DNA of 52,174 nucleotides from positions 74,959 to 127,132 of the forward strand of contig SWDR01000031.1 in assembly GCA_005116815.1 (NCBI GenBank), written 5' to 3'. This stretch comes from Nitrospira sp. GTDB lineage: Bacteria; Nitrospirota; Nitrospiria; Nitrospirales; Nitrospiraceae. Shown here piece by piece: positions 6,215 through 41,894 of the stretch. A program made the position numbers and the translations under genes. Position 1 is the stretch's first letter. Each line of letters opens with the position of its first letter. Below the pieces are notes generated by a model. It was not told the origin of the DNA and did no database searches. It saw only the letters and a list, made by a program, of their open reading frames with translations.

Positions 6215-6215
6215 G

Positions 6216-10066: not shown

Positions 10067-11479
10067 ATGGTCGCGTTCCGCACTCACATCCGCCGGTCGG
10101 CCCTCGCTCTCATGCTCGTGCTCCTGACTGCCTTTGCCGTCTTTATCCACGTCGGGCTCTCGAACCTCCTCTCTCGCCACATCGACGGGGAACTGCTCGC
10201 CATCGCCCAGCACGAAGCCTCCAGGGTCGAAATCACAACCGGCACCCTCACCACATTGGAAGATGACGAACAGCAGGAATTACGTGAGGCTGCCCGCTCC
10301 ACCGTGGTGCTGGATCCAATCGGAACGATTATATGGAAGGGGGCAGCGGTGGTGGTGCGCCCCTCATTGGAAGCCGCTGTACTGGCCGATGTCCAACAGG
10401 GACGCACGGCCTACGACACCATCACCACGCCGAATCAGGAATCTATCCGGCGCATCTCGCTCCCCATTACGAGGGACGGAACCGTGGAGTACATTCTTCA
10501 GACAGAGTCATCGCTCCGTATTGTCCAGGATGCCCTCCGCCTGTTGAGGCTCCTGCTTGGAGGCCTGGCGGCGGCTATGATCGGAGCGGCCTGGATGGGA
10601 AGCCGCTGGCTCGCCCGTCAGGCGCTGACGCCGGTCGAGGTGCTCACCACCACGGCAGAGCAGATCTCTGTCCCCTCCCTGAAGACCCGCGTGGCGCTGG
10701 ATGCGCCGTATGAAGAATTTGCCCGATTGGCCCGCGTCTTCAACGCGATGCTGGACCGGCTGCATACAGTCTTTGAAGGACAACGCCAATTCGTGGCCGA
10801 TGCCTCGCATGAGATGCAGACGCCCTTGACCGTGATCAAGGGCACCATTGAAGTCGCGTTGCTCAAGAGCCGGAACGCCGACGAATATCGGGAGGCATTG
10901 GTGACCAGTTTGGGGCAAGTTGAGCGGCTCAGTACCCTGACATGCTCACTCCTGACACTGGCCCAATTCTCCGGGGATCGCCCGCCCGTAAAACTCGTTC
11001 CTCTGGCGTTGGAGCCCTTGGTTCAGGAACTGGTGAAGGAACTGACCGTGCTTGCCGAAGATCGCACGGTTCGACTGACGCTGGAGACCCATCCGGTGGC
11101 GCTCGTCTTGGGTGATCACGGGCGACTGACACAGCTGCTGATCAATCTGCTCGATAATGCATTGGCCTATACGCCACCAGAGGGAGCGGTCACGTTGCGC
11201 CTCAAACCGGAGCAGGGACAGGTGGTCATGGAAGTGGAGGATACAGGCCCTGGCATCGCGCCGGAACATCTGCCCCATCTGTTTGCACGATTCTACCGGG
11301 GAGAGACTGCACGAGACAGGGAATCAGGCGGAGCGGGCCTGGGACTCGCGATTGTGAAAGAAATCGCGGAAGCCCATGGCGGAACCGTGCGTGCATCCAG
11401 CACCCTCGGCAGGGGATCGGTCTTCACCGTCACGCTGCCGTCGTATAGCCCGTCGCCCGTCAGCCCTTGCGCCACTTGA
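10067..11479 (+). CDS. Membrane sensor histidine kinase (CusS/CzcS-like)
   Basis: A 470-aa kinase that starts three bases after the regulator stop. It has an N-terminal helix, a periplasmic sensor segment of ~130 residues, a second helix (~165-185), HAMP, HisKA with H-box ASHEMQTPLT, and HATPase_c with N-box NLLDNALAYTPPEG and G-boxes DTGPGI and GGAGLGLAI. Together with the preceding regulator it forms a two-component system, presumably for the adjacent metal pump. No metal ligand cluster is obvious in the sensor domain. Confidence 0.92.
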   Translation: MVAFRTHIRRSALALMLVLLTAFAVFIHVGLSNLLSRHIDGELLAIAQHEASRVEITTGTLTTLEDDEQQELREAARSTVVLDPIGTIIWKGAAVVVRPSLEAAVLADVQQGRTAYDTITTPNQESIRRISLPITRDGTVEYILQTESSLRIVQDALRLLRLLLGGLAAAMIGAAWMGSRWLARQALTPVEVLTTTAEQISVPSLKTRVALDAPYEEFARLARVFNAMLDRLHTVFEGQRQFVADASHEMQTPLTVIKGTIEVALLKSRNADEYREALVTSLGQVERLSTLTCSLLTLAQFSGDRPPVKLVPLALEPLVQELVKELTVLAEDRTVRLTLETHPVALVLGDHGRLTQLLINLLDNALAYTPPEGAVTLRLKPEQGQVVMEVEDTGPGIAPEHLPHLFARFYRGETARDRESGGAGLGLAIVKEIAEAHGGTVRASSTLGRGSVFTVTLPSYSPSPVSPCAT

Positions 11480-11509
11480 CTTCCACTTGGTCTGGGACTA
11501 AATTCCCAA
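11476..11509 (+). promoter_or_regulatory. Promoter with TGGGA-N6-TCCCA palindrome before the DUF6502 gene
   Basis: TTGACT (11476-11481) and TAAATT (11499-11504) are 17 bases apart and form a plausible sigma-70 promoter. The -10 lies inside the palindrome CTGGGACTAAATTCCCAA (11492-11509). The same palindrome occurs three times in front of the divergent cytochrome genes near 27.5-27.7 kb. A transcript would start at about 11511, nearly at the GTG start (11514), so the mRNA may be leaderless. Confidence 0.55.
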
Positions 11510-11513
11510 GTCT

Positions 11514-12353
11514 GTGAAACCAGGCCACACGAAAGCTCTTTCGGCTGCCACGCTGACCCTTCTCCGTCCGCTCGTCCGGCTCTTTCTCCGGAACGGCTTC
11601 GCGGCAAAAACATTTTTTGACCTCGTCAAGCAGACGTATGTTGAGGTCGCCCGGGACGAATGTGGCGTCAAAGGGAAACAGGCCTCCATCTCCCGCATCG
11701 CCATTCTGACCGGACTGACTCGCAAAGAGGTTCAGCAGCTACTGACCAGCCCTGAAGCCCGCGATACTGCGCCAGAAGAACAATACAACCGGGCCGCGAG
11801 AGTCATTGGCGGATGGCTGAAAGATCCGGCCTTCGGTGACGGAAAGGGGCATCCCGCCCCGCTCGAACTGGATGGCAAACGTGGATCGTTTAGCGCGTTG
11901 GTCAAACGCTACAGTGGGGACATGCCTGTCCGCGCGATCTTCGACGAACTGGTACATGTCGGAGCCATCCAAGAACTTAAGGATGGGCGAATTTGCCTTC
12001 GTGCTCGAGGCTATATCCCGCAAAAAGGCGACGCTGAGAAACTCGCCATTCTTGGCACTGATACTGCAGATCTCATTGCAACGATCGATCACAACCTCTA
12101 CGAGACTCCGAGCAAGCCTCGATTCCAGAGAAAAGTGATGTACGACAACGTCCCGCAAGAGGTAGCGAAAGAATTTCAAATCCTTGCGGCGGCACAAGGA
12201 CAGGAATTCCTGGAAACACTAGACCGCTGGCTGGCCCATCGAGACCGCGATGTGAATCCTTCTTCAAAAGGCACAGGGCGGGTCCGTGTGGGACTGGGGA
12301 TCTATCAATTCGAAGAACGATCGGACTCCGATCAAGAACATTCAGAATCATGA
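11514..12353 (+). CDS. DUF6502 family protein, possible DNA-binding regulator
   Basis: A 279-aa protein whose N-terminus (LTLLRPLVRLFLRNGFAAKT, then FFDLVKQTYVEVA) matches my recollection of DUF6502. Residues ~57-77 (SISRIAILTGLTRKEVQQLL) look like a helix-turn-helix. The GTG start has no ribosome-binding site but fits the family start and a leaderless message. Its stop overlaps the next gene's ATG (ATGA), so the two are translationally coupled. Its promoter carries the palindrome shared with the cytochrome divergon, so an autoregulatory role is an attractive but untested idea. Confidence 0.75.
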   Translation: MKPGHTKALSAATLTLLRPLVRLFLRNGFAAKTFFDLVKQTYVEVARDECGVKGKQASISRIAILTGLTRKEVQQLLTSPEARDTAPEEQYNRAARVIGGWLKDPAFGDGKGHPAPLELDGKRGSFSALVKRYSGDMPVRAIFDELVHVGAIQELKDGRICLRARGYIPQKGDAEKLAILGTDTADLIATIDHNLYETPSKPRFQRKVMYDNVPQEVAKEFQILAAAQGQEFLETLDRWLAHRDRDVNPSSKGTGRVRVGLGIYQFEERSDSDQEHSES

Positions 12354-13831
12354 GATCGTTGTCTCACATTGTGGTTCTCTCTCTTCTCGCGCTGCTGGCA
12401 GTGTCCACCTCCTGTGGCCCTAGTCCTCAAGCGGGTGGAGGTATCGGCGGGACAGGATCCGTGGCCACGGTTTCCTCTGGCCCGGTGACTAAGTTCGGTA
12501 GCGTCTTTGTATCCGGGACGGAATACGACAATACCAATACTCTCTATTGTATCGACCACGACCCCTGTAGCCGGGAAAACCGACTCAAGATTGGGATGGT
12601 GGTGGTCGTCAACGGCACCCGCACTGTGGAATACACATCGAACCAGACGCTGACGCATCTCGCCGACAAGATTACCTACGAAGAAACCGTCGAAGGGGAG
12701 GTACAGTCGGTTGGTACCGACGGCCTTAGCCTAGTGGTGTTAGGCCAAGTCGTGTCGGTGAATCAGAAGACGGAAATTGACCTGTCGCTCCAAGGGGCCT
12801 CTCCCCATGCACTCAATCCGACCGCAGTCTCTGGCACCCTTGTCGAGATCAGCGGCTTCGTGACAGGGGATGGCACCATCCTCGCAACCCTGATCCAACC
12901 CCATACCGGTATCCCCCATTTCGAAATTGAGGGTGTCATCAAGAATCACGACCACACGGCAAAGACCTTTGCCATCGGATCTCTCGTCGTCGACTATTCG
13001 CGTCCGACGACTGACAGCAGCCTGATGCCCTCTCCAACCAGCCAGAACTGGGACGGCTTGGTGGTATTCGTTCTGGGCGATCGATGGAGCCAGGGCGGAC
13101 CGGGTCCCTATGGAGCCCGGATGAGCGCGACGAGCGTGAAACCGAAGGCCCTCGGAGTCTCAGACATCCAGGACACAGCAGTCGAAGACTTTGTCACGCG
13201 GGTGGACGGGCCGGGCGACTTCTTTTTGAACAACGTGCGTGTACGGACGAACGCCGGCACGACCTTCGAAGGTGGAACCCTCAACGACATCCTGGTTGGT
13301 GCCCATCTGGAGGTGTACGGTTCGCTGGTCGGCGGTATTGTGAACGCGACGAAAGTGGAGTTCGAAGGAGAGACTGAACTGCAGGCGAATGTGGCTGCGG
13401 TCAATGCGAGCGACAACACGTTGACGTTGGCAGGACTTTCAGCGCTTACAATCCAATTCGACGCTCAGACAACCCTCCATGGCCAGGGGAATCCACATGG
13501 TCTCAACGATCTTCGCAGTGGCGACCATCTCCAGATTCACGGTCAACTTCGTGGCGGGAATACCATTTTGGCAAAAGAAGTGGAACGGAGTGCGCCAGCA
13601 TCAACCGTTCAGATAAAGGGATTGGTCATGTCCGCCGCAGATCCACTTCTCGTCCTCTTCGGATCTTCCATCGACACATCCTCGATTCCAGAGAATCGAT
13701 TTTTGTGGCGCTCTGGAGTGATCGGAAGAAGTGGCTTCTTTGCCAATCTCTCAATCGGGAAAACTATCGTCCTCCGAGGAACCTATCAGACAAATACTGT
13801 GACGTGGTCATCGGTTTTCCTTGGCGATTAG
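12350..13831 (+). CDS. DUF5666 repeat lipoprotein
   Basis: A 493-aa exported lipoprotein: signal peptide with lipobox STSC (Cys ~22), a glycine-rich linker (GGGIGGTGS), then four to five tandem small beta-barrel DUF5666-type modules recognisable by repeats such as VEGEVQSVGTDGLSLVVLGQ and LVEISGFVTGDGTILATLIQ. The function of this family is unknown. Coupling to the DUF6502 gene by a 4-base overlap suggests a joint role. It faces the convergent Sel1 gene across about 60 bases. Confidence 0.8.
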   Translation: MRSLSHIVVLSLLALLAVSTSCGPSPQAGGGIGGTGSVATVSSGPVTKFGSVFVSGTEYDNTNTLYCIDHDPCSRENRLKIGMVVVVNGTRTVEYTSNQTLTHLADKITYEETVEGEVQSVGTDGLSLVVLGQVVSVNQKTEIDLSLQGASPHALNPTAVSGTLVEISGFVTGDGTILATLIQPHTGIPHFEIEGVIKNHDHTAKTFAIGSLVVDYSRPTTDSSLMPSPTSQNWDGLVVFVLGDRWSQGGPGPYGARMSATSVKPKALGVSDIQDTAVEDFVTRVDGPGDFFLNNVRVRTNAGTTFEGGTLNDILVGAHLEVYGSLVGGIVNATKVEFEGETELQANVAAVNASDNTLTLAGLSALTIQFDAQTTLHGQGNPHGLNDLRSGDHLQIHGQLRGGNTILAKEVERSAPASTVQIKGLVMSAADPLLVLFGSSIDTSSIPENRFLWRSGVIGRSGFFANLSIGKTIVLRGTYQTNTVTWSSVFLGD

Positions 13832-13893
13832 CCGTGAGCTGGATCTCCCCTCCTCCCCCCAATTCCCTTTCGCGCTCGAAACTGTCCTTATTG

Positions 13894-14517
13894 CTACGGG
13901 ATCTTGTTGACCATGACGCTGGCTCTGGAGGGTTTCCATTGTTTGATGAGTTTCCTTAGATTCGCCACCTCGGCGGGCGGCAATTGCTTGGAGAGGATCT
14001 CGCTCTGTCGGCCAGCCTCTTCATCACCTTGGGCGGCAGACAGCACAAGCCACATGTATGCTTGGGATTTGTCCGGTGCCACCCCCTGGCCGCCTCCTGC
14101 CAGTAGTTTCCCCAGGCTATGTTGCGCAGGGGCAAAACCTTTATCTGCCGCAAGACGCCACCACCGCACGGCCTCTTTATCGTCCTTCGGCACACCCGTG
14201 CCCTCCCAGTAATTGTCACCGAGCGCATTTTGAGCGAAGGTATCCCCTTGCGTGGCCGCAAGACGATACCAGCGGAGCGCTTCACTCTTATCTTTAGGCA
14301 CCTCTCGTCCGCGATCGTAAAGTAGCCCTAGATTGAACTGGGCTTCCGCATCTCCCTTTTCAGCCTGCTTATGCAATTGCTGAACGGGAGCCGCCAGCAC
14401 AGTGCCTTGCTTGGCTATGTAAGGTGACGTGTCTTGTGTCGCAGGTAGTGACCGTGATCCCCCACAGGCGTTCATCGATAACAGAATCGTACTGGCGATC
14501 ACGATCCGACTCCACAT
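13894..14517 (-). CDS. Sel1-repeat lipoprotein
   Basis: A 207-aa protein with a lipoprotein-type signal (lipobox-like MNAC) and three to four Sel1-like TPR repeats (AQFNLGLLYDRGREVPKDK, AQNALGDNYWEGTGVPKDD, AQHSLGKLLAGGG). ATG at 14517 is preceded by AAGGAGG and is clearly better than the longer in-frame extension to 14625. It is the last gene of the minus-strand cytochrome/ccm cluster. Sel1 proteins serve as protein-interaction scaffolds; the partner is unknown. Confidence 0.85.
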   Translation of the reverse strand: MWSRIVIASTILLSMNACGGSRSLPATQDTSPYIAKQGTVLAAPVQQLHKQAEKGDAEAQFNLGLLYDRGREVPKDKSEALRWYRLAATQGDTFAQNALGDNYWEGTGVPKDDKEAVRWWRLAADKGFAPAQHSLGKLLAGGGQGVAPDKSQAYMWLVLSAAQGDEEAGRQSEILSKQLPPAEVANLRKLIKQWKPSRASVMVNKIP

Positions 14518-14537
14518 GGGGACCTCCTTGAGCAATG

Positions 14538-15851: not shown

Positions 15852-15865
15852 ATACGCTTCCAGTG

Positions 15866-17152
15866 CTATGGAATTTCACGATCGATGACAATCGCGATCT
15901 TATTCGCTCCCGGTTTCACCGGCTGACTCATACCCTGCAAATCGCCGCTCTTCGCCATGGCCTCGCCGGACTTCGAGAGCCGCGCGACGATCACGACGGT
16001 CCCGGCATCGGACAACTTCCTGGACGGCATGGGGCTCGTTGAATCGTCGAGCCGGAAGGTGAAGGGCAAATCTTTTCTCATGACGCGTACGATCGAAACC
16101 GGCATGGGCGGGCCCTCCACCGCCTTCGCAAATACAAACAGGGTATCGGTGGGCGATCCCTTACCGGCCAAATGCGGTGCGAGGGTGACCGTTCCGGCGA
16201 TCGCACGCTCCTGCCCCGTTTGTTTGGCAGAAATGGCTGGTCCCGCAGGCGCGACCTTCACGGTCGCCGCCATCCCCTTCTCCCCCGCGAGGCCCTTCGC
16301 TTCATCGATGGCAGAGGCCAACTCTTGGAGCACCTCTTGCTCCGCATCGGGCGGCAAGTTCGCGCGCGCCTGAATCCAATACCTCGCTGCATCCGCATAC
16401 TGTTTTCGATCGAATGCCACGGTGCCGACCATCATCAGCACTTTCACATTCTGTGGATCGAGCTTCAGCGCTTGCTGAATCAGCAACTCCGGCTTCCCTT
16501 CCAATGTGCGGCCCTGGACGACACCCAACGCGTCGGCATAGTCGGCCAGTAACTGGGCATCTTCAGGAATCAGGCTGACGGCTTTCTCGTAAATCGTCAC
16601 GGCCTCGCTGTACCGCCCCATGCTCACGTAGGAGCGGGCGAGCAGCGCCCATCCCACTCCGTCGTTGGGATTTTGCTCGAGTTTTTTCTTGAGACGTTCC
16701 AACAGGGTCTCGATCCCTTCGGCACTCATGCGATCGGAATCCGAGTTGCCCTGCGCCGAAAACGCCGACGCGGATGGATGCGAGATCGCCAGCGGATTGC
16801 CGATCGTCCAGTACAGCGCCACACTCGCCAGAGGAACGACGATAGCAACGACTGCCGCGACCAGCCGGCTGTTGACCTGGCCTCGTGCTGCTGTCGGCGC
16901 CGTATCGGCGCTCCCGGTTTCGTCGAGCAGCCGACGCTCGAGCTCAGACCTCGCCTGCTGATAGAGCTCCTCCGTCAACACCCCGTTCTTCTGGTCTTGT
17001 TCGAGTTCGGTAAACTGCTGCCGGTAGACCGCCAGTCTGTTCTCGCGTTCGCCCATCGCAACCGCAGTCGTTCTCCTGAGCAACGGCCAGAGGAGGAGCG
17101 CGATCACACCGAGGGTCATAGCTGACACGATGAGCCAGAACATGAGTGTCAT
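15866..17152 (-). CDS. ccmI: Cytochrome c biogenesis protein CcmI (CycH)
   Basis: A 428-aa apocytochrome chaperone. It has two N-terminal helices (residues ~4-24 and ~98-118) separated by the CcmI cytoplasmic segment (ENRLAVYRQQFTELEQDQ), TPR repeats (~165-270) that bind the C-terminus of apocytochrome c, and a C-terminal beta domain. It overlaps ccmH by four bases and closes the ccm cassette. The long bipartite form is typical. Confidence 0.92.
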   Translation of the reverse strand: MTLMFWLIVSAMTLGVIALLLWPLLRRTTAVAMGERENRLAVYRQQFTELEQDQKNGVLTEELYQQARSELERRLLDETGSADTAPTAARGQVNSRLVAAVVAIVVPLASVALYWTIGNPLAISHPSASAFSAQGNSDSDRMSAEGIETLLERLKKKLEQNPNDGVGWALLARSYVSMGRYSEAVTIYEKAVSLIPEDAQLLADYADALGVVQGRTLEGKPELLIQQALKLDPQNVKVLMMVGTVAFDRKQYADAARYWIQARANLPPDAEQEVLQELASAIDEAKGLAGEKGMAATVKVAPAGPAISAKQTGQERAIAGTVTLAPHLAGKGSPTDTLFVFAKAVEGPPMPVSIVRVMRKDLPFTFRLDDSTSPMPSRKLSDAGTVVIVARLSKSGEAMAKSGDLQGMSQPVKPGANKIAIVIDREIP

Positions 17153-17610
17153 GAGCGTTTGATTCCTTCCGAAAGCATTTGCGCAACCGCTTGGTGATCC
17201 TCAGCTGAGAGCGTGGGATCGGGCACCGTCTTCGCTCGGCGCCGCAACGCGAGGGCTAACGTGACCCCTCCCACCACGAGCAAGAGAAACGGGCCCAGCC
17301 AGAGAAAGGTCGTCGTGGCCTTGAGCGGAGGCCGGTATAACACGAAGTCGCCGTAGCGTTGAACCAGGAAGTCGCGAATCTCTTGGTCGCTCATATTTTT
17401 CGCGATCATCTCGCGAACTTCTCGGCGTAAATCTTCGGCCAATGGCGCGGTCGAATCTGCCAGCGTCTGGTTCTGACAGACGAGACAGCGCAACTCCAGA
17501 GCAAGAGTCTTCAAACGCGCCTCTGCCTGCGGGTTCTCAGCCAACGGTTTCGCTTCCTCTGCCGACACGAGGCAGGGGATCAAGAGCAGCACAAGTAACC
17601 AGCGTCTCAT
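17149..17610 (-). CDS. ccmH: Cytochrome c biogenesis protein CcmH
   Basis: A 153-aa thiol oxidoreductase of System I. It has a signal peptide, a helical domain with the active-site motif LRCLVCQNQTLADS (RCxxC), and one C-terminal membrane helix. It reduces apocytochrome CxxCH cysteines before haem attachment. The gene overlaps both ccmG and ccmI by four bases (ATGA). Confidence 0.95.
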   Translation of the reverse strand: MRRWLLVLLLIPCLVSAEEAKPLAENPQAEARLKTLALELRCLVCQNQTLADSTAPLAEDLRREVREMIAKNMSDQEIRDFLVQRYGDFVLYRPPLKATTTFLWLGPFLLLVVGGVTLALALRRRAKTVPDPTLSAEDHQAVAQMLSEGIKRS

Positions 17611-18134
17611 TGTTGTTGTAACTCCCGCACCAGGGGCATAATTTTCTTGTCCAAAATACTCTCATCCAGCGGACCAATCTGTTTATAGCGAATCACCCCC
17701 GCTTTATCGATCACGTACGTTTCAGGGACGCCATAGACGCCATAGTTGATTCCCACACGCCCCGATTCATCGACTGCGATGACCGAATAGGGATTCCCCC
17801 ATCGCCTCAGCCAGGCGACCCCCTCGTCCCGCCGGTCCTTGTAGTCCATGCCGTAGATCGGAACTTCGCCATTTTTCGCGAGCTGCATCAACACGGGATG
17901 CTCTTCCTTGCAGCCACCGCACCACGAAGCCCAGAAATTCAGCAGCCAGACTTTGCCGCGCAGATCCTGCAGCGACAGCATCTGCTGAGGGTCGTGTAAT
18001 TGTGGCAAGGCAAACTCCGGCGCCGGTTTACCCACTAACGGCGATGGCACTTCGCGAGGGTTCAAGGTAAGCCCAATACCCAGAAACCCGACGACCACCA
18101 CAAAGATCGCAAGAGGGAGAAGGAAACGTTTCAT
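17607..18134 (-). CDS. ccmG: Periplasmic thioredoxin CcmG/DsbE
   Basis: A 175-aa membrane-tethered thioredoxin-fold protein (TlpA/DsbE family) with an N-terminal anchor and the active site NFWASWCGGCKEEHP, plus the GVYGVPETYVID cis-proline loop. It keeps apocytochrome cysteines reduced for haem ligation. It overlaps the ccmF stop by four bases, consistent with one transcript. Confidence 0.95.
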   Translation of the reverse strand: MKRFLLPLAIFVVVVGFLGIGLTLNPREVPSPLVGKPAPEFALPQLHDPQQMLSLQDLRGKVWLLNFWASWCGGCKEEHPVLMQLAKNGEVPIYGMDYKDRRDEGVAWLRRWGNPYSVIAVDESGRVGINYGVYGVPETYVIDKAGVIRYKQIGPLDESILDKKIMPLVRELQQQ

Positions 18135-20122
18135 GAGACCTCTGGTCCCACCGGACGCGGCAGGTCTGACACGAGCGATTCTTCACGCCGCCCGGCTAAG
18201 CGATAGCGGCGATCGGTCATCGCGAGGACCCCGCCCAACGCCATAATCAAACAACCGCCCCAGATCCAGTCAATGAAGGGCTTGTGGTACAACCGCACGC
18301 TCCAGGCTCCCCCTGGGAGCGGTTCCCCGAGCGACACATAGAGGTCGCGCAGCAGCCCTGTATCGATCGCAGCTTCGGTCATCGCCTGATTCTGAACCGG
18401 ATAATGCCGCTTTTCAGGGAACATGTCGGTGACGTCATGCCCCCCCTGGCTCACGTGAAACATCCCGCGTGCCGCCGTATAGTTCGGCCCTTTGATGTTT
18501 TGCACGCCATCGAACCGGAAGGTATAGCCGCCAATGGTGGAAGTCTCGCCGACATTCATGCGTAGATCTTGTTCGACCTCGAACCCTTTGACCATAGTGA
18601 CACCCACGATAAACACCGCGATGCCGCAATGAGCGACTACCATGCCCCAATAGGCCCGCGGAAGCGTTACTAAAGCGCTCATGACGCTGGTGTCGACGAG
18701 GCGACTCACTCGCTCCCACACATTCACCGCTGCCGTCGTCACAACCCAAGACGCCAACAACAGCCCCAGGCTGAGAAGCGGCGTCCACTTGCCCAGCACG
18801 AAGGGGAGCAGCAGCGCAGTGACGACGCTCGCACCGAAGGCCCAACGCAGGCGTCGCGCCAAGTCCGGCAAGCTCGCTTTCTTCCACTGCGCCAATGGGC
18901 CGATTCCCATGAGAAAAATGGCCGGGGTCATGAGGGGGACAAACACCGTATCGAAATAGGGCGGGCCGACTGAAATCTTCCCGAGACCCATCGCGTCGAG
19001 AAACAACGGGTACAGCGTACCCAGGAAGACCGACCCCAAGGCTGCAACCAATAATACATTGTTCCCCAGCAGCATCGCTTCGCGCGAAACCATGTCGAAG
19101 CCTCCCCCCAACCCTACGCGCGGGGCACGCCAGGCATAGAGGACTAACGATCCGCCAATGACGATCGCGAGGAAGACCAGAATAAACAAGCCGCGTTTTG
19201 GATCGGTCGCGAAGGCATGGACCGAGGTCAGGACACCGGATCGGACCAAGAAGGTCCCGACCAAACTCAATGAGAAGGCGAGAATCGCGAGCAGCACCGT
19301 CCAGACTTTGAAACCGCCTCGTTTATCCGTCACGGCCAGCGAATGCATCAGCGCGGTCCCTGCCAGCCAAGGCATGAAGGAGGCGTTTTCCACCGGGTCC
19401 CAAAACCACCAGCCGCCCCAGCCCAGTTCGTAATAGGCCCAGCCACTGCCTAACGCGATGCCCACGGTGAGAAAACACCAGGCAGCGGTCGTCCAAGGGC
19501 GGGACCAGCGGGCCCAGGCTGCGTCCAGGTTGCCTCCCAACAGGGCTGCAATCGCAAAGGCGAACGCCACGGAAAACCCCACGTACCCCATATAGAGCAT
19601 CGGCGGATGCATGACCATGCCGGGGTCTTGCAGCAAGGGATTGAGATCGCGCCCATCGGCTGCAGCAGGGATCAACCGTTCGAATGGATTCGACACGGTC
19701 AACATGAACAGGAGAAATCCCAAGCTGACCAACCCCATGACGCCAAGAATGCGGGCCCGCATCGCCTCCGGCAGATGTTCGGAGAAGAACGTCACGGCGA
19801 CCATCCAGACCGTGAGAATGAACGTCCAGAGGAGCAACGACCCCTCATGCGCGCCCCAGATGGCAGCGAGGCGATAATGTAGGGGGAGATGGGAGTTCGA
19901 CGTGGCCGCGACATACAAAACCGAGAAGTCTTTGACGGCGAACGCGTATCCCAGGCAACAGAAGGCCAACAGGACCAGGATGAATTGCCCGCGCGCCGCC
20001 GGCTTCGCAACGGACATCAAGGCCGCATTCCCGACTGCGGCCCCGTATATGGGCAGACTCCCCTGCACGACCGCCACGCAGAGCGCAAGAATCAACGCAA
20101 AATGACCGATTTCTGGAATCAT
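18131..20122 (-). CDS. ccmF: Haem lyase subunit CcmF
   Basis: A 663-aa polytopic membrane protein that attaches haem to apocytochrome c together with CcmH and CcmI. The haem-handling tryptophan motif reads WGGWWFWDPVENASFMPWL, and the external histidines of the family are present (HPPMLYMGYVGFS). The length and roughly 15 helices match the family. It starts 12 bases after the ccmE stop. Confidence 0.96.
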   Translation of the reverse strand: MIPEIGHFALILALCVAVVQGSLPIYGAAVGNAALMSVAKPAARGQFILVLLAFCCLGYAFAVKDFSVLYVAATSNSHLPLHYRLAAIWGAHEGSLLLWTFILTVWMVAVTFFSEHLPEAMRARILGVMGLVSLGFLLFMLTVSNPFERLIPAAADGRDLNPLLQDPGMVMHPPMLYMGYVGFSVAFAFAIAALLGGNLDAAWARWSRPWTTAAWCFLTVGIALGSGWAYYELGWGGWWFWDPVENASFMPWLAGTALMHSLAVTDKRGGFKVWTVLLAILAFSLSLVGTFLVRSGVLTSVHAFATDPKRGLFILVFLAIVIGGSLVLYAWRAPRVGLGGGFDMVSREAMLLGNNVLLVAALGSVFLGTLYPLFLDAMGLGKISVGPPYFDTVFVPLMTPAIFLMGIGPLAQWKKASLPDLARRLRWAFGASVVTALLLPFVLGKWTPLLSLGLLLASWVVTTAAVNVWERVSRLVDTSVMSALVTLPRAYWGMVVAHCGIAVFIVGVTMVKGFEVEQDLRMNVGETSTIGGYTFRFDGVQNIKGPNYTAARGMFHVSQGGHDVTDMFPEKRHYPVQNQAMTEAAIDTGLLRDLYVSLGEPLPGGAWSVRLYHKPFIDWIWGGCLIMALGGVLAMTDRRYRLAGRREESLVSDLPRPVGPEVS

Positions 20123-20134
20123 ACAGGTGGTGTC

Positions 20135-20617
20135 CTACTGCGGTTGTACGACCAACGTGCTGCTACTCTGTGCGCCTTTTGCTTTGGCTTTGGCCAACGC
20201 CTCAGCGACTTCCGGCGGCATATAGTTCTCATCGTGCTTGGCCAGCACCTCGCTGGCGATGAATGTCCCATCGGCCCCAAGTTGCCCCTGCGCCACTGCG
20301 CCCTTCCCCTCCTTGAAAAGGTCAGGAAGAATCCCTTTGAACGAGACCGGAACACGCTTCGCCATATCGGTCACGATGAAATGAACGGTGAGACCGTCGC
20401 CCTCACGCGTCAGACTTCCTTGTTCAACCATCCCGCCGATGCGGAAGCTGCGGCCCTGAGGCACCTCGCCATTGGCGACTTGCGTCGGCGTAAAAAAGAA
20501 CACGAGGTTACTTTGGAACGCATTCAGCACTAATACCGCCGCCACGGCCAACGCCACGAGACCGAGCCCTATGAGCACAAAACGTTTCTGTCTGGGTTTC
20601 ATCGTCGTTCCATTCAC
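20135..20617 (-). CDS. ccmE: Haem chaperone CcmE
   Basis: A 160-aa periplasmic haem chaperone with an N-terminal anchor, an OB-fold and the HDENYMP motif, whose His binds haem covalently (the usual His form). GTG at 20617 overlaps the ccmD stop (GTGA), which supports that start; an internal ATG at 20602 is the alternative and would shorten the protein by five residues. Confidence 0.94.
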
Positions 20618-20781
20618 CGGTCTTGAAATGATTGACGGGCGCCCTCACGTGCCGCCGCATGCCGTCGTCGCAAGCTGAACACTTCCCACAGCATACCGAA
20701 CGCCGTGACGCCAAACGACGTCCACACGTAGAGGCCGTATCCGCCCATGGCCACAAACTCTGACACACTGCCCCACTGCAT
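20614..20781 (-). CDS. ccmD: Small haem exporter protein CcmD
   Basis: A 55-aa single-helix membrane protein ([20 protein letters not shown], followed by a basic tail LRRRH). CcmD joins CcmABC and helps release holo-CcmE. Its ATG overlaps the ccmC stop by one base (TGATG), and its stop overlaps the ccmE GTG. Size, hydrophobicity pattern and position identify it. Confidence 0.88.
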
Positions 20782-21545
20782 CAGGAAACCTCCAGCGCGT
20801 CTTGCTGCGATGGCGGTGTGTCCCAAGAGGCTTGCCGCTCACGTTCGAGGATCACACAACGCATCCGTGCAAGCGTGACGGCGAGACTGTACATCCAGAA
20901 CCCCAGCGTCATCACCAACATCGCCATGAGCATCGTCGCCGCCATTTTTGGCGCAGCCGTCATACTGACCGACGCACCCTGGTGGAGCGTATTCCACCAA
21001 CGCACGGAGAAATAAATAATGGGAACATTCACGACTCCGACTAGCGCGAAGACGGCGCTGGCACGATCGGCGCGGCGGGAGTCATCGATGGACGTGCGGA
21101 GCAGCATCACCCCGCCATACAGAAACAAGAGAATCAATTCGGATGTCAGCCTGGCATCCCAGACCCACCAGGCGCCCCAAGTCGGCTTGCCCCACATGGC
21201 GCCGGTCACCAGCGCAAGAAAGGTAAAGAGCGCCCCGGTCGGAGCAATCGCTTGAGCCATCATAAACGAAGGCCGCGCATTGAGGCCCAATCCAAGCCCG
21301 GCCCAGATGGCCATGACCACATAGAGGAACATCGACATCCAGGCAGCCGGGACATGGACGAAAATAATGCGATAGGACTGTCCTTGCTGAAAATCGGTCG
21401 GCGCGACAAAGAATCCAAGATAGAGACCCGCCCCGATCAACAACATCGCTGCAGCGGCGCACCAGGGGATCAGACGTCCGGCCAGGGGATAGAACGCTTG
21501 CGGCGACGAATACTTGAACCAATTGATGCGAGCGAAACCCATCAT
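20781..21545 (-). CDS. ccmC: Haem-handling membrane protein CcmC
   Basis: A 254-aa membrane protein with six helices and the tryptophan-rich motif WGAWWVWDARLTSELIL that presents haem to CcmE. Conserved periplasmic histidines flank it (IFVHVPAAWMS). The gene starts eight bases after the ccmB stop. Family assignment is firm. Confidence 0.95.
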   Translation of the reverse strand: MMGFARINWFKYSSPQAFYPLAGRLIPWCAAAAMLLIGAGLYLGFFVAPTDFQQGQSYRIIFVHVPAAWMSMFLYVVMAIWAGLGLGLNARPSFMMAQAIAPTGALFTFLALVTGAMWGKPTWGAWWVWDARLTSELILLFLYGGVMLLRTSIDDSRRADRASAVFALVGVVNVPIIYFSVRWWNTLHQGASVSMTAAPKMAATMLMAMLVMTLGFWMYSLAVTLARMRCVILERERQASWDTPPSQQDALEVS

Positions 21546-21553
21546 AGTCGTGG

Positions 21554-22237
21554 TTACTCCAGCGCGATCCGTAGCGATGTGGCCGTGGCCCAGGGCGCCA
21601 GTGCGAGAGCCAGTAACAAACCCGCGCCCAAAAGCGAGAGATGTGCGCCGGCGCCGATACCCGAGGCACTGCTCGACACGGCGCCGGCACCGAAAATCAG
21701 GACCGGAATAAACAATGGCAACACGAGGAGCGCAATCAGCACACTACTGCCACGCACCCCCAGGGTCAACGCGGCACCGATCGCCCCGATGAAACTCAAT
21801 GTCGGCGTGCCCAGCAAGAGCGAAAGGGTCAGGACGCCCAACGCCTCCCCGGTCAGACCGAATTGCAGGCCCAGGAGCGGCGAAAGGAGCACCACCGGCA
21901 ACCCGGAAATCAGCCAATGCGCGGTCACCTTCCCGATGACCAGCAGGGACAATGGTTGCGGAATCAGCAGCATCTGCTCCAATACTCCGTCGGCATAGTC
22001 AGCCGTAAACAGACGACCCAGCGACAGCAAACACGAAAGTAGCGCAGCGACCCACAACACTCCCGGTGCGATCGTCCGCAGCACCGCTGGTTCCGGTCCG
22101 ACGCCCAAAGGGAAGAGGCTCCCGACCAGGATGAAAAACAGCACCGTCGTCAGGACATCCGAACGGCGTCTCAGCGCCAACAAGAGATCCCGCCGGATGA
22201 TGTCACACAGGGCTGCAAACATGCCAAGCTGATTCAT
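21554..22237 (-). CDS. ccmB: ABC transporter permease CcmB
   Basis: A 227-aa permease with six helices that partners with CcmA in the complex releasing holo-CcmE. Family landmarks include RRSDVLTTVLFFILVGSLFP near the N-terminus and LLSLGRLFTADYADGVLEQM. It overlaps the ccmA stop by four bases. Confidence 0.94.
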   Translation of the reverse strand: MNQLGMFAALCDIIRRDLLLALRRRSDVLTTVLFFILVGSLFPLGVGPEPAVLRTIAPGVLWVAALLSCLLSLGRLFTADYADGVLEQMLLIPQPLSLLVIGKVTAHWLISGLPVVLLSPLLGLQFGLTGEALGVLTLSLLLGTPTLSFIGAIGAALTLGVRGSSVLIALLVLPLFIPVLIFGAGAVSSSASGIGAGAHLSLLGAGLLLALALAPWATATSLRIALE

Positions 22238-22854
22238 CCAGCGAGCCTCAGCTGATCGAGGCGATCAGCGCCGACTTCGATCTCTTGGTGAGTCGCCGCG
22301 ATAACGATCCCCCCGTGACTGAGATGCGCCCGCAGCTGTTGCATCAGCAGACCGGTCGACGCCGCATCCAGCGCTGCGAACGGTTCGTCCAAAATCCAGA
22401 GTACCCGCTGTGAGACCCACAAGCGCGCCAGTGAGACCCGGCGCTTCTGTCCCTGTGACAGCACCCTCGTCGGCAACCGGTGAATGGCCCGCGCAAGGCC
22501 AACCGCCTCCAACGCCTCACAGGTTTTTTCGACTGAGATCGCTTCACCAGCCAAGCGAGCCGAAATCGTGACATTTTCGACCGGAGTCAGGTCATCTTTC
22601 AGACTGTTGAGATGCCCGATATAGATCAGGCTGGCCAGGTACCGTTCCCTGCAGGCACGAACGTCTTCCCCATCCCAGAGAACACGTCCCTGCTCCGCCG
22701 GCAGCAGGCCGCACAACATGCGCAAGAGGCTGGTTTTTCCGCTCCCGTTCGCCCCCGTCACTGCGAGAAGCCTGCCCCGCTCTAGCGTGAAGCTCAGCGC
22801 CGTAATGAGCCGGCGTTCCCCACGAACACAACTTACGTTGTCTGCTTTCAACAT
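22234..22854 (-). CDS. ccmA: ABC transporter ATPase CcmA
   Basis: A 206-aa ATPase with Walker A TGANGSGKTS, signature LSQGQKRRVSLAR and Walker B LWILDEPFAALD. It powers release of holo-CcmE. ATG at 22854 lies one base after the stop of the upstream beta-barrel gene (TAG-C-ATG), so the ccm cassette is coupled to that gene. A longer in-frame start at 22881 would overlap the barrel gene and is less likely. Confidence 0.94.
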   Translation of the reverse strand: MLKADNVSCVRGERRLITALSFTLERGRLLAVTGANGSGKTSLLRMLCGLLPAEQGRVLWDGEDVRACRERYLASLIYIGHLNSLKDDLTPVENVTISARLAGEAISVEKTCEALEAVGLARAIHRLPTRVLSQGQKRRVSLARLWVSQRVLWILDEPFAALDAASTGLLMQQLRAHLSHGGIVIAATHQEIEVGADRLDQLRLAG

Positions 22855-22855
22855 G

Positions 22856-25162
22856 CTAGGAAAAGTCCCACCGGATACCAAAGAAAAAGAACTCCCTTGT
22901 CGTCGAGTCCTTTTGTGTCGTGCTATCCGTCAACGTTTTCTCCACCCCGCCTGAGGCCTCGAAGGTCCAACTGTCGAGGAAGCGATAGTCGATGCGAATG
23001 GTCGGAGTCACACGATACAGTTCCACGTCAAAACTATCTTTTTGGTGATAGAGAATCACAAACGTGTCGAACTGCAACCGTGGCCCAAGACGAGCCATCG
23101 AATTGAGCGCAAGCGATTGCCCTCGATATGCTGGGCTTGTAATATAACTGGCATTCGCCACAAAGGTCGTATTCTCGAACGGGAAGTTCGCCCCGATCGC
23201 TTGAGCCGTATAACTCCAGATATTGCCAGTCCCTGGCTGCGCTTGCAAGGAGCAAGGCGCATCGGAAATGGCGTTTGGATTGAGAAAGAGCGTGCTGGTC
23301 CCCGGCAGGATGACCAAACAGTTCGTGGCGCTCGTCCCGGAGATACGGTTGACACGGACATCCCCACCGAGTTGCCAATCTTTCGACACGGCATGCAGCA
23401 CACCGGCCATGAGCAAATCACTTGTCGCTGTCACTGCCTTGGCCTGGTCGCGCAAAAGGCTTTCATTCGTGGCGTTGATGGTCTCGAGCGTGGCATTCGG
23501 CGTCCCGAAGAGCGAATTCGTCGTTTGCAGATAGGGCGTTCTGCGATGGTCCGCCAGTAACGTGTAGGTCGTCCCTTCGGTCACCCAATTCCCGTTGAGC
23601 ATCGCGACGTTGAGAACTTTATATGAGACGTCGTAGTCGACTAGGCCGAAGGCATTCTTGCCGTTGGCCGCATACCGTAACTCTGTCCCCACGGCCCGGC
23701 GGTCCACAATGCCATTGACCATCTGGTTGATGAAATACGCATTGCCGCTCCAGGCCTGTCCGATCGGACCGATGTCGACGTTCGCTCCATAAAAATATCG
23801 CTTCAAATCGGCCCGGAAGTTCCGGGGATCGTCGGGCACATAGTTCGACGTCAAACTGAATTGCCTGGGCTGGCCGGCAAGAAGATTAATATTCAAAAAT
23901 TGAGGGACGGCGGTATAACGCACCCAGGCTCCGTCGAACCGGAAATCCAGCACACCACCGCTGTTCCCCGGTTGACGACCGACCCGGACGAGGTATGAAT
24001 CCTGACTCGAGTGCTCGTAATACAGCGCCCTGAGACGGCTGATATTTCGTCGGACATCCGAGGTTGCCAGTAGATCGTAGGTCTGCGTCCCACGCACGAC
24101 GAGCTTGTTATCATACTCGTCTTTACGGTAGCGGCCGGTGACATCGAATGCAGACTGGAGCATCGATTGGTCCTGGTTCCTGAAATTCGTCGTGCTATTC
24201 GCCACTTTGTCTGTGATTTTCGTCTGGGAATTTCCGCCATAGTAATACTCGTACACGCTCCCGTAGACCCGCATCTCATCGATTTTCTTCGCCGGCTTTT
24301 TTGCCTTTCCCTGAGCAATGGCAGATTTCAAGTCCGCGACCTTGGCCAATCGTTGCCGTACGCGAACGGCACCTTCCCCATCGGGATAGATCTTGAGATA
24401 ATGTTCATATTCCGCCTTGGCTTTATCGATATCGCCGGTTCCCTCTCGGGCAACACCGATCATTTCTTGCGCATCACGAGACCGTGTGTTCGGCGGAAGA
24501 TTCAAGGCTGCGTTAAAAATCAGGACGGCTTTTTCGTAATCTTCCGCGGTGAGGGCGGTTCGCCCGAGGGCCAACAGGTCTGCGCCATATTGCTCGATGT
24601 CCATGCCTTGCTTGAAGGGAGGGACGTCAAGCGATTGCGCGGATCCACCGGCTGCTGGCGGCTTCGAAGTGGGAGGCGCCTTCACTTCCGGCGGCAGCGC
24701 GAGCGGCATGACAGGCTTATCCAGTTTCACTGCAATCACGATTCGACTGCTACTTCTGATGTCTCGCTGGCTCACTCGAAATCGAACCGGTCGTTCAAAC
24801 TTAATTGAAAGCCCGTTGGTGGCTTGGTCAGGAAAGGTGACCTGAAATTTCGGGATGAGATCGCTAGGAGGGGATGACGCCAGTTCTCGAGCGAATCGGC
24901 GGGAGCGATCCAAGTCGGGAAAGTCCAAGAAAACTCGGATGAGATCGCCTTTGTCGGAGGGGGTATGTCTGAGATACAGGGCCCGCGCATTGAATATGAT
25001 GTGAATCTCGGCCACGCCAGGCGTTTCCACAATCTCAATACGGTCGAGCACCTGGGCAACGGCTGAGCCTGGTTCAATGAGAGTCACAAGAAAAAGAAGT
25101 GCCCCCAGAAGGACGCTCCCCATCACATAGCGCAGCCTAATTATAGAGATTTCTCGCAACAT
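22856..25162 (-). CDS. AMIN/TPR outer-membrane beta-barrel protein
   Basis: A 768-aa exported protein. After a signal peptide (~residues 15-36) comes an AMIN-like domain (LDRIEIVETPGVAEIHIIFN, ~40-150) expected to bind the cell wall, a proline-rich linker, two or three TPR-like repeats (~195-290), and a C-terminal region of about 460 residues rich in alternating polar and aromatic strands ending FFFGIRWDFS, typical of an outer-membrane barrel. It lies between a ~25-haem cytochrome gene and ccmA on one strand, so a porin role in electron transfer across the outer membrane is possible. It is not an obvious MtrB/PioB relative. Confidence 0.7.
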   Translation of the reverse strand: MLREISIIRLRYVMGSVLLGALLFLVTLIEPGSAVAQVLDRIEIVETPGVAEIHIIFNARALYLRHTPSDKGDLIRVFLDFPDLDRSRRFARELASSPPSDLIPKFQVTFPDQATNGLSIKFERPVRFRVSQRDIRSSSRIVIAVKLDKPVMPLALPPEVKAPPTSKPPAAGGSAQSLDVPPFKQGMDIEQYGADLLALGRTALTAEDYEKAVLIFNAALNLPPNTRSRDAQEMIGVAREGTGDIDKAKAEYEHYLKIYPDGEGAVRVRQRLAKVADLKSAIAQGKAKKPAKKIDEMRVYGSVYEYYYGGNSQTKITDKVANSTTNFRNQDQSMLQSAFDVTGRYRKDEYDNKLVVRGTQTYDLLATSDVRRNISRLRALYYEHSSQDSYLVRVGRQPGNSGGVLDFRFDGAWVRYTAVPQFLNINLLAGQPRQFSLTSNYVPDDPRNFRADLKRYFYGANVDIGPIGQAWSGNAYFINQMVNGIVDRRAVGTELRYAANGKNAFGLVDYDVSYKVLNVAMLNGNWVTEGTTYTLLADHRRTPYLQTTNSLFGTPNATLETINATNESLLRDQAKAVTATSDLLMAGVLHAVSKDWQLGGDVRVNRISGTSATNCLVILPGTSTLFLNPNAISDAPCSLQAQPGTGNIWSYTAQAIGANFPFENTTFVANASYITSPAYRGQSLALNSMARLGPRLQFDTFVILYHQKDSFDVELYRVTPTIRIDYRFLDSWTFEASGGVEKTLTDSTTQKDSTTREFFFFGIRWDFS

Positions 25163-25233
25163 GCGTTCCCATAAGTTGTGGATAGCCGAAACGGAAGATC
25201 CTCACCCGTACCAGGCAAAGACCTTCCGTTGAA

Positions 25234-25356
25234 TTAGACGCTGCCGGTGGGTCGGTGCAGACCGCAGCTGGTCATGTGAGATTCAAAAGCCGACTCATCA
25301 TCGACTTCCCACACATCGATCACACAATCCGTCGCACGGATGCCCTGCTCTGTCAT
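25234..25356 (-). CDS. Possible 40-aa small protein
   Basis: ATG at 25356 opens a frame of 40 codons (MTEQGIRATDCVIDVWEVDD, ending CGLHRPTGSV) with CGGAG close upstream. The amino-acid mix looks protein-like, and the frame continues open upstream to a stop near 25406 (HEFRDIARQLKRGDQRS). It may be a genuine small gene or the tail of a decayed one. No family is recognised. It fills most of the 251-base gap between the cytochrome and barrel genes. Confidence 0.3.
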   Translation of the reverse strand: MTEQGIRATDCVIDVWEVDDESAFESHMTSCGLHRPTGSV

Positions 25357-25413
25357 ACTCCGCTGATCTCCCCGCTTGAGCTGTCGAGCGATGTCACGAA
25401 ATTCATGACGTAA

Positions 25414-27432
25414 TCAAAAACCATTACCAACCCTATGACAGCCTGAATTATCACAAGAGTTTGGCGCTGCTCGACTCCCACTATGTTGAGACGGTCTCTT
25501 GCCCTGCACCCCGAGCCAAGTCGTGCCACGCTCATGACAGGTGTTGCATTGCCCTGGGATTGCCGTCACAGAAGCGTGATACCTCGACCCGGAAAAGGCT
25601 GTCGTGTTCCTGTGGCACACATCGCATGACTGCGTGCTGGGGATATGATTCGCCGGTTTCCCTGTTACACCATTAGTACCGTTGTGGCAGGTGGCACAGG
25701 TTCCCGGCGTGACCCCGGTATGACTAAACGTAGCCGGCGTCCAGGCTGTCGTCCGGTGACAATTACTGCAAGCCCCCGCGGTCATCCCGCCTCGGTGCCC
25801 CGCCGGAATGCCGCGTGACAACGTATTGTTGTGACAGGTCGAACAGGGCGTCGCCGCCACGACCGTGTGGTTCATCGTCGCCGGGATCCAGCCCGTCGTC
25901 CGGTGACAGCTATCGCAGGCCGCCGCCCGGTTCGTCCCGCCTTTGTGGTTCGTCGGAAGACCGGTCGACGAGACCCCGTGACAAGTCGCGCAGCTCCCTG
26001 GCGTCACCCCAGTATGGTTGAACGTGGCCGGCGTCCAGGCCGTCGTCGTGTGGCAGGTGTTGCAAGCCCCTGGCGCCATGCCGCCTCGGTGCCCCGCTGG
26101 AATACCGCGGGCCAGGGTGGTGTTGTGACAGGTCGAGCACGGCGTCGCCGCCACGACCGTGTGGTTCATCGTCGCCGGGATCCAGCCCGTCGTCCGGTGA
26201 CAGCTATCGCAGACCGCCGCCCGGTTCGTCCCGCCTTTGTGGTTCGTCGGAAGACCGGTCGACGAGACCCCGTGACAAGTCGCGCAGGTCCCTGGCGCCA
26301 CATTCGCATGACTGAATGAAGCGGGCCGCCAGGCCGTCGTCGTATGACAGGTATTGCAGGCCCCCGGGGTCATCCCGCCTCGGTGGCCTGAGGGAATTCC
26401 GGTCGACAACGCCCCATTATGACAAGTGGCACAGGATGAAGCGGCGACGATGGAATGGTTCATGGTCGCCGGCCGCCACGCCGTCGTGCGGTGGCAGGTA
26501 TCACAGGCGGCGGCCCGGTTCGTGCCGCCTTTATGGGAAGCAGGAATTCCTGTTGAGGAGACCCCGTGACAAGTGGCGCAGGTCCCCGGGGCCACTCCCG
26601 TGTGGGTAAACGTCGCGGGCCTCCAAGCAGTGGTTCGATGACAGCTATCGCAGGCGGCGGCCGGATTCGGACCACCTCTGTGGCCGGTCGGAATACCAGT
26701 GGAGGTCCTTCCGTGACAGGTTGTGCACGTTCCTGGTCCCACTCCGGTATGGTTGAACGTTGTAGGCCTCCAGGCTGTGGTCCTGTGGCAGCTGTCGCAT
26801 GACCCAGGAGCCATCCCGCCTTTGTGCCCAGCAGGAACACCAGTCGCGTTGATGCCGTGACAGGTCGTGCAGGTCCCCGGCATCACACCTGAATGGTTAT
26901 AACCACTCGTCACAAGCCTCCAGCTTCCGCCGCCACCGCCCTTACGATGGCACGAATCGCAAGAGGCCCCCGTGCTCATGTGGCTCGTGGGTTTGCCCTC
27001 GGCGGTGGAGCCGTTATGGCATTTCGAACAGGTCCCCGGCAGAATCCCGTTGTGAGTAAAGAAGGCCGGTCTCCAGTTCGTGGTGCGGTGACAACTGTTA
27101 CAGTTGACCGACGTCGGCAAGTGGTTCGTCGGCTTAAAGGTGGCAACGACACGGCCGCCAGGAGAATGGCATTGCATACATTGCGTCGGCGTGCCTCGGA
27201 ATATGCCCTGCAAATGGCACCGCTCGCATACGACCTGCGCATGGCCGCCGCTGAGTTGGAAGCCGGTACTGCTGTGATCGAATTCGATATCGGAACGACT
27301 GGTACGATTTTGGGCCCCCGACTCGCTCGGCCAGATGAAGCCCAGGCACAACACGAGCGAGACAAGGAGCACTCCGATCAGCCGCACCGCACAAAACCGG
27401 CTATTCAGGTTGTTCATATTGGTAACATCCAT
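25414..27432 (-). CDS. Giant multihaem cytochrome c (24 CxxCH plus one CX4CH)
   Basis: A 672-aa exported cytochrome. A signal peptide ends near ESGAQN. The mature protein holds 24 CxxCH motifs and a final CDNSGCH (CX4CH), so about 25 haems c. The core repeats a ~98-residue, four-haem module with one extra His per haem (NHTGV, NHKGG, NHTVV, GHRGG), as expected for bis-His haems. ATG at 27432 is preceded by AGGGGA at a good distance and is preferred over TTG at 27450. The spacing of haems suggests a long, wire-like periplasmic or outer-surface protein. The natural electron partner is unknown. Confidence 0.92.
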   Translation of the reverse strand: MDVTNMNNLNSRFCAVRLIGVLLVSLVLCLGFIWPSESGAQNRTSRSDIEFDHSSTGFQLSGGHAQVVCERCHLQGIFRGTPTQCMQCHSPGGRVVATFKPTNHLPTSVNCNSCHRTTNWRPAFFTHNGILPGTCSKCHNGSTAEGKPTSHMSTGASCDSCHRKGGGGGSWRLVTSGYNHSGVMPGTCTTCHGINATGVPAGHKGGMAPGSCDSCHRTTAWRPTTFNHTGVGPGTCTTCHGRTSTGIPTGHRGGPNPAAACDSCHRTTAWRPATFTHTGVAPGTCATCHGVSSTGIPASHKGGTNRAAACDTCHRTTAWRPATMNHSIVAASSCATCHNGALSTGIPSGHRGGMTPGACNTCHTTTAWRPASFSHANVAPGTCATCHGVSSTGLPTNHKGGTNRAAVCDSCHRTTGWIPATMNHTVVAATPCSTCHNTTLARGIPAGHRGGMAPGACNTCHTTTAWTPATFNHTGVTPGSCATCHGVSSTGLPTNHKGGTNRAAACDSCHRTTGWIPATMNHTVVAATPCSTCHNNTLSRGIPAGHRGGMTAGACSNCHRTTAWTPATFSHTGVTPGTCATCHNGTNGVTGKPANHIPSTQSCDVCHRNTTAFSGSRYHASVTAIPGQCNTCHERGTTWLGVQGKRPSQHSGSRAAPNSCDNSGCHRVGNGF
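25833..26420 (-). repeat. 294-bp tandem modules inside the 25-haem cytochrome gene
   Basis: Two successive 294-bp units (from 25833 and from 26127) are almost identical over their first ~155 bases and diverge after that. Each encodes 98 residues with four haem motifs. More divergent copies extend to about 26.9 kb. The high DNA identity points to recent duplication or gene conversion, and such repeats are also prone to assembly collapse. Confidence 0.85.
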
Positions 27433-27506
27433 GTTCATTCCCCTACACAACCCCGCACATCAGCCCCCCGCCCAAGCACCTCGGCTCTTCTTGCTCGATA
27501 ATATTA

Positions 27507-27524
27507 TTGGGAATATAATCCCAA
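27507..27524. promoter_or_regulatory. Palindromic operator candidate, site 1
   Basis: TTGGGAATATAATCCCAA has six-base perfect arms. On the minus strand its centre contains TATATT, a good -10 hexamer for the 25-haem cytochrome gene, leaving a leader of about 73 bases; the matching -35 is weak. A protein bound here would cover the -10, which suggests repression, or activation of a promoter with a poor -35. Confidence 0.6.
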
Positions 27525-27553
27525 CTACAGACTTGCACCATATTTACCTCAAG

Positions 27554-27571
27554 ATGGGAAATCAATCCCAA
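27554..27571. promoter_or_regulatory. Palindromic operator candidate, site 2
   Basis: ATGGGAAATCAATCCCAA shares the TGGGA-N6-TCCCA core with sites 1 and 3. Its centre is 47 bases from site 1, close to 4.5 helical turns. No -10 hexamer lies inside, so it may be an auxiliary site for cooperative binding or looping. Confidence 0.55.
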
Positions 27572-27712
27572 ATTCGTTGACCAGTGCTACGCAATAGGTA
27601 TACCGTTCCGTCTCAATCCCCTAACGTGATGATTTGCCACAGAAGACCAGGCAGAGCAGACCCACTCATCGCGTGCAAATAAGACCGTTTGGAACGGAAC
27701 TGAAGGGGAATG

Positions 27713-27746
27713 CAGACATCGAATACAAATGGGAATATGATCCCAA
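27713..27746 (+). promoter_or_regulatory. Rightward promoter with palindromic operator, site 3
   Basis: CAGACA (27713-27718) and TATGAT (27736-27741) are separated by 17 bases and point to the cytochrome-b-like gene. The -10 lies inside the palindrome ATGGGAATATGATCCCAA (27729-27746). The overlap of operator and -10 is the same as at site 1 and at the DUF6502 promoter. Confidence 0.6.
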
Positions 27747-41866: not shown

Positions 41867-41894
41867 ATTTCATTTAGATCGATTAGCACTCACA

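Follow-up and report, generated by a model that had tools for sequence, protein, structure and literature searches.

In a 52,174-nucleotide stretch of a Nitrospira genome (hereafter the window), the palindrome TGGGA-N6-TCCCA lies on the -10 box of the gene for a protein of the family DUF6502 (PF20112) and recurs in the divergent control region of multihaem cytochrome operons. The site is conserved at a fixed place upstream of DUF6502 orthologues in the phylum Nitrospirota, co-occurs with DUF6502 genes and recurs before cytochrome operons of other genomes. Judged from the sequences, DUF6502 is probably the corresponding regulator, i.e., a one-component protein that would bind the palindrome as a dimer, act as autorepressor at its own -10 box and repress the divergent cytochrome operons as well. 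A dedicated regulon had already been proposed in a preliminary description of the window and is supported here by co-occurrence and conservation; we infer binding by DUF6502 itself, its dimeric state, repression rather than activation and the nature of the signal.

The palindrome is present in the window in four exact copies at the positions described previously, with 16-base-pair (bp) cores at 11493-11508, 27508-27523, 27555-27570 and 27730-27745; the 18-bp coordinates of the preliminary description correspond to these cores plus one flanking base per side, the flanks being complementary only at 27507/27524. From dinucleotide shuffles, 0.07 exact matches are expected per window, with a maximum of 1, and four copies were reached in 0 of 100 shuffles. 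In the source genome as scanned (1.97 Mb, 81 contigs, 71.6% complete), five exact copies were found in total, four of them inside the window, compared to four for the backwards control, i.e., the copy number in this single genome is unremarkable and it is the clustering of the copies that is remarkable. For the fifth copy (L001), no association with anything was established.

Operator 1 (TGGGACTAAATTCCCA, 11493-11508) covers the -10 box of a sigma-70-type promoter on the forward strand (11476-11504), consisting of TTGACT (11476-11481), a 17-bp spacer and TAAATT (11499-11504), and is followed after 5 bases by the GTG start of the DUF6502 gene, a position conserved in relatives. Hence, the gene has the site in its own promoter, right where RNA polymerase binds, as had been claimed. 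Among 73 distinct upstream regions, derived from PF20112 genes of the phylum and the related loci of the window, 45 exact and 14 one-mismatch sites were found at a spacing of six (59 in total, with locus L071 contributing two), compared to two one-mismatch matches for all other spacings from 0 to 12 together. In line with the expected conservation upstream of orthologues, the site is present across families and classes of the Nitrospirota. The start codon is located 1-6 bases past the palindrome in 55 of the 59 sites, most commonly at a distance of 3 (28 sites), the hexamer at palindrome positions 7-12 is TATAAT in 21 cases and TATATT in 10, and a perfect TTGACA precedes the -10 box by 16-18 bp in 34. 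The orthologues thus have a predicted promoter close to the consensus, whose -10 box is overlaid by the operator. As transcription usually starts 6-7 bases past the -10 box, the 5' end of the DUF6502 mRNA would coincide with the start codon or adjoin it, making the transcript leaderless.

Variants of the operator were also found. An asymmetric form, TGGGAATATAATACCA, accounts for 9 of the 59 sites, all of them at DUF6502 promoters in families f31 and f34 (L097, L098, L100-L106), where the protein may have changed correspondingly. Many of the DUF6502 matches in these two families carry a flag for one stop within the matched region, although an open frame of 277-304 amino acids is given. Read by eye, a paired change to TGGGC-N6-GCCCA is seen upstream of DUF6502 in L022, and TGGGT-N5-ACCCA in L099.

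For evaluating the co-occurrence of site and gene, genomes with and without PF20112 were compared. Of the 32 genus genomes, 16 contain the family, as do 64 of the 395 genomes drawn from the phylum (62 over the cut-off). Within the genus, the 16 genomes with DUF6502 harbor 85 TGGGA-N6-TCCCA sites versus 21 of the backwards control, and the 16 genomes without it 22 versus 15. When scanning the phylum for a form with an AT core (TGGGANWWWWNTCCCA), matches were obtained in 47 of the 64 DUF6502 genomes and in 35 of the 331 others (Fisher p = 1.6e-24, with such p-values being inflated because the genomes are related and independent events are overstated), while the backwards control was found in 10 of 64 and 65 of 331 genomes, respectively (p = 0.82). 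In terms of sites, the AT-core form outnumbers the control about eight-fold in the presence of DUF6502 (98 versus 12, a part of the 98 being the DUF6502 promoter itself) and falls below it in its absence (39 versus 72). A scatter at background frequency is thereby excluded, and the enrichment is confined to the DUF6502-positive genomes of the phylum, in agreement with the anticipated co-occurrence. The 17 DUF6502 genomes not matched by the AT-core form comprise G075 and G211, where the gene matches are fragments below the cut-off, the nine genomes that carry the asymmetric form and a remaining six, of which two (G020, G397) have exact sites whose core includes G or C, two more (G016, G170) have one-mismatch forms, G015 is without a site of its own at DUF6502 and in G131 the DUF6502 gene is broken by a stop.

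DUF6502 is also plasmid-borne, mostly in Rhizobium. Outside the Nitrospirota, plasmids were covered, with 10 of the 75 matching records listed being examined (nine loci from Alphaproteobacteria and one from Acinetobacter); among phage records, no DUF6502 match was obtained. Conservation extends beyond the phylum, with a spacer one base shorter in four of the nine alphaproteobacterial loci, where GTGGGA-N5-TCCCAC is found upstream of DUF6502 in Azospirillum, Microvirga, Methylocystis and Pseudoroseomonas, and with a one-mismatch form in a fifth (Mesorhizobium). These four plasmids, together 2.49 Mb, contain exactly four exact copies, one apiece and each before DUF6502. When allowing one mismatch, the counts approach those of the control (1 versus 4 on the Azospirillum and 7 versus 6 on the Microvirga plasmid), so that only the exact motif is informative. 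A second, one-mismatch copy is located at a distance of 29 bp in Microvirga, 31 bp in Pseudoroseomonas and 59 bp in Methylocystis.

The other three copies in the window are located between two divergent transcription units and are all kept in relatives. The leftward unit encodes a multihaem c-type cytochrome (25414-27450, reverse strand, start codon probably the ATG at 27433) matching Pfam Cytochrome_C7 and relatives; of the 25 haem motifs attributed to it, 24 are CXXCH, but the remaining one is of the type CX3-4CH. The rightward operon on the forward strand starts with a membrane protein gene (27795-28802, annotated start uncertain) whose product has no Pfam match and can be read as cytochrome-b-like from its histidine-bearing hydrophobic segments, continues with another multihaem c-type cytochrome deduced from Pfam and motif count (28818-30614, 24 CXXCH) and likely ends with a TPR protein showing a weak Peptidase_MA match (30661-32223), co-linear in relatives. 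It had been claimed that three of the four copies cover a -10 box. This holds for TAAATT at DUF6502 and for operator 4 (TGGGAATATGATCCCA, 27730-27745), which covers TATGAT (27736-27741) of a rightward promoter (27713-27741) with CAGACA (27713-27718) and a 17-bp spacer, but not for the leftward TATATT within operator 2 (TGGGAATATAATCCCA, 27508-27523), which remained below the scan threshold of 8/12; a rightward TATAAT (27514-27519) inside the same site, preceded at 17 bp by TTGCTC, obtains a higher score. Operator 3 (TGGGAAATCAATCCCA, 27555-27570) is without a -10 box.

Full-length orthologues of the 27795 gene are encoded in 13 of the 32 genus genomes and are preceded by at least one exact site in 12 of them. 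DUF6502 is present in 12 of these 13 genomes and in 4 of the 19 others (p = 1.7e-4), and the sites are also retained where cluster and DUF6502 are on separate contigs (L116, L123, L130). In the distant family f21 (L196, L198, L200, L201, L204), the site precedes a 27795 homologue whose downstream neighbour encodes a cytochrome containing 37-49 CXXCH. Other genes near sites encode an NHL-repeat protein beside a multihaem gene (L118), PKD-domain proteins (L119, L125), a small cytochrome c (L029) and a NapC/NirT-type cytochrome with three sites (L120). The latter are positioned 194-195 bp apart in a repeated stretch upstream of the gene (L120:13132-13536), each trailed by similar sequence with GGGAAATTAATACA-type runs. 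Several target genes begin 200-400 bp from the site. Outside DUF6502 promoters, 38 of 91 sites with an AT-rich core have a frame of at least six CXXCH within 1.5 kb, compared to 3 of 18 sites with a GC-rich core and 0 of 26 control loci (AGGGT-N6-ACCCT), a count that is descriptive, as the same G228 site was counted twice (L066 and L214), relatives are non-independent, some loci were chosen after the cluster had been seen there and sites of DUF6502-negative genomes are included.

The candidate regulator itself (11514-12353, forward strand, 279 amino acids, E 6e-125) is a full-length member of PF20112, a family to which Pfam assigns no function, with 415.9 bits versus a cut-off of 27 and covering model positions 2-267 of 268. 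It shows a helix-turn-helix (HTH)-like segment at about 58-78, and residues 126-162 may form a winged helix. Among 47 members compared (40 Nitrospirota and 7 Pseudomonadota), the segment [TS]-x-S-R-[IV]-x-x-x-T-G-x-x-R-K-E-V is conserved, with S60, G67 and R70 identical in all 47 and R61 and K71 in 46. AlphaFold2 (AF2) models, with the window protein and ten related-locus proteins as input, give helices at 59-66, 70-78, 126-134 and 139-148 and strands at 152-154 and 160-162 at modest confidence. The best Foldseek match of the N-terminal model, albeit not significant, is an IclR protein from T. maritima (about 2.7 Å over 76 columns, E 0.17, probability 0.94), likewise a one-component winged-helix repressor, whereas Pfam IclR did not appear for the 47 members among the 25 families listed. 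A DNA-binding fold in DUF6502 is likely.

By an ATGA, the DUF6502 gene overlaps with a gene for a DUF5666 protein with a lipoprotein-like signal (12350-13831, forward strand, PF18914). The latter adjoins DUF6502 in all 16 DUF6502-bearing loci compared and on four alphaproteobacterial plasmids; as in the window, an overlapping DUF5666 gene directly follows in Azospirillum, Methylocystis, Pseudoroseomonas and Rhizobium acidisoli, while none is annotated beside DUF6502 in Rhizobium C104 and Acinetobacter, where the plasmid gene tables are incomplete. Since DUF5666 begins like an exported lipoprotein, DNA binding within the shared operon is likely for DUF6502 only.

The most likely mechanism is that the HTH-like segment of DUF6502 recognizes the TGGGA half-site, GGG possibly being read by the arginine and lysine that open the second helix, the former of which is invariant, and that two subunits occupy the inverted pair TGGGA-N6-TCCCA. 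At DUF6502 and at site 27730, RNA polymerase would be denied access to the -10 box by protein bound to the palindrome lying over it. The DUF6502-DUF5666 operon would thereby be autorepressed, and the divergent multihaem cytochrome operons would be repressed as well. The sites of the divergon, 47 and 175 bp apart, may allow looping or a dual role. A signal connected with electron transfer, the redox state or the envelope would relieve repression; judging from the targets and from the exported DUF5666 partner, it may come from the envelope or from electron transfer.

Besides the inflated p-values, several observations weigh against DUF6502 as owner of the site. In a Nitrospira subclade (L028, L029, L031, L059-L066 and others), no such site is found at DUF6502, several members retaining sites further down, and it is likewise absent upstream of DUF6502 in the four Rhizobium loci and the Acinetobacter locus. 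G019 encodes DUF6502 and the cytochrome cluster, yet has no exact site at the latter. Conversely, cytochrome cluster and site(s) are present in G007 (99% complete, with one exact site remaining at the cluster) and G246 (93%) where no DUF6502 was found; a search with a profile of the 47 members, run without a positive control, gave no match in seven genomes including these two. Sites also precede or are near genes unrelated to electron transfer, such as those for an ankyrin protein (L206), a glycosyltransferase (L216), a DUF4382 protein (L207) and ATP-grasp and phosphoesterase proteins (L199). As for the protein, both AF2 models are weak (mean predicted local distance difference test scores of 48.7 and 63.2), and PDB sequence, lax-threshold Pfam and Foldseek searches revealed no significant DNA-binding relative; NCBIfam gave no match either. 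The exceptions in G007, G246 and the subclade fit a loss of the regulator and of autoregulation, respectively, but also leave room for another site owner.

Such an owner could be a regulator of the CRP/FNR type with a TGGGA half-site, making DUF6502 and the cytochromes mere co-regulated targets. The CRP site TGTGA-N6-TCACA has the same architecture of five-base inverted half-sites at a spacing of six, and sites without a detectable DUF6502 as in G007 and G246 as well as the lack of a significant match of DUF6502 to a known DNA-binding family would be in line with it. However, the third base is G and not T here, the alphaproteobacterial form has a spacing of five, and the DUF6502 protein of the window matches PF20112 only, without any cNMP-binding or Crp-type HTH domain. 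Moreover, as the site tracks DUF6502 across the phylum sample and its sole exact copies on the four alphaproteobacterial plasmids precede DUF6502, a different owner would have to be distributed likewise. On this basis, and with no search made for CRP/FNR genes in these genomes, we regard this explanation as unlikely. Similarly improbable is that DUF6502 does bind but activates or acts both ways, with the divergon sites working by looping or from upstream. Site 27555 without a -10 box, sites up to 222 bp apart and the remote start of several targets would be in line with this, whereas the palindrome on the -10 box of DUF6502 in nearly all site-bearing orthologues is in the classic place for a repressor.

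MraZ, which binds TGGGN-type repeats at a division-gene promoter, resembles the proposed autorepressor in being bound in its own promoter at TGGG-containing units, has the same half-site letters and is encoded in 30 of the 32 genus genomes. It occurs, however, with and without DUF6502, whereas the palindrome follows DUF6502, and two genomes without MraZ match, G006 (70% complete) and G022 (82%), have DUF6502 together with a site before DUF6502 or at the cytochromes, respectively. At the division cluster, MraZ binds direct repeats arranged in series (PMC7761207, PMC8475190), while the DUF6502-linked sites are inverted repeats at spacing six and lie at other genes. MraZ was consequently rejected as site owner, an assignment with very little probability left in view of the genus counts, where sites clearly exceed the control only in DUF6502 genomes. 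Finally, the motif is short and in the source genome hardly more frequent than its control, as expected from chance recurrence or a mobile palindromic repeat. Fixed position at DUF6502, enrichment only in DUF6502 genomes and conserved arms within differing flanks and cores make this the least credible explanation, and chance was rejected from the shuffles, the spacing specificity upstream of DUF6502 and the co-occurrence.

With regard to the surroundings, a cytochrome c maturation set (ccmH, ccmF, ccmE, ccmC, ccmB, ccmA; 15866-22881) is situated between DUF6502 and the divergon and is co-linear in L125 and L131. Genes for ApbE (flavin transferase), an FMN_bind protein and a porin-like protein are grouped at 40646-44893, 8-12 kb beyond the cytochrome operon, and as a set are reminiscent of flavin-based electron transfer. 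In L198, a sigma-70-type factor gene (5311-6549) is divergent to the site and a giant cytochrome operon. The everted motif TCCCA-N6-TGGGA amounts to 78 copies in G048 and 49 in G080 (f21), compared to 0-10 in 28 other genomes, and is probably a repeat family in these two.

An operator on the -10 box of an autoregulated gene is a mechanism of a known kind, but protein family, operator and target set appear to be undescribed. Among open-licence PubMed Central papers, none was found to contain 'DUF6502' or any of six literal spellings of the operator, and no title among the matches listed refers to a multihaem cytochrome regulator of this sort. More generally, DUF6502 may well represent an unrecognized family of DNA-binding repressors in at least two phyla, employing the half-site TGGGA at a spacing of six in Nitrospirota and five in Alphaproteobacteria, with the usual exported DUF5666 partner maybe in the signal path, and serving in Nitrospirota as a dedicated switch of multihaem conduits with up to 49 haem-binding motifs per protein. 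The prediction is sharp, as it names a single protein, a single palindrome and one spacing per phylum. If true, the DUF6502 family would gain a function along with a binding site and a set of targets, and the conditions under which multihaem cytochromes are turned on in Nitrospira and other Nitrospirota would become easier to approach.

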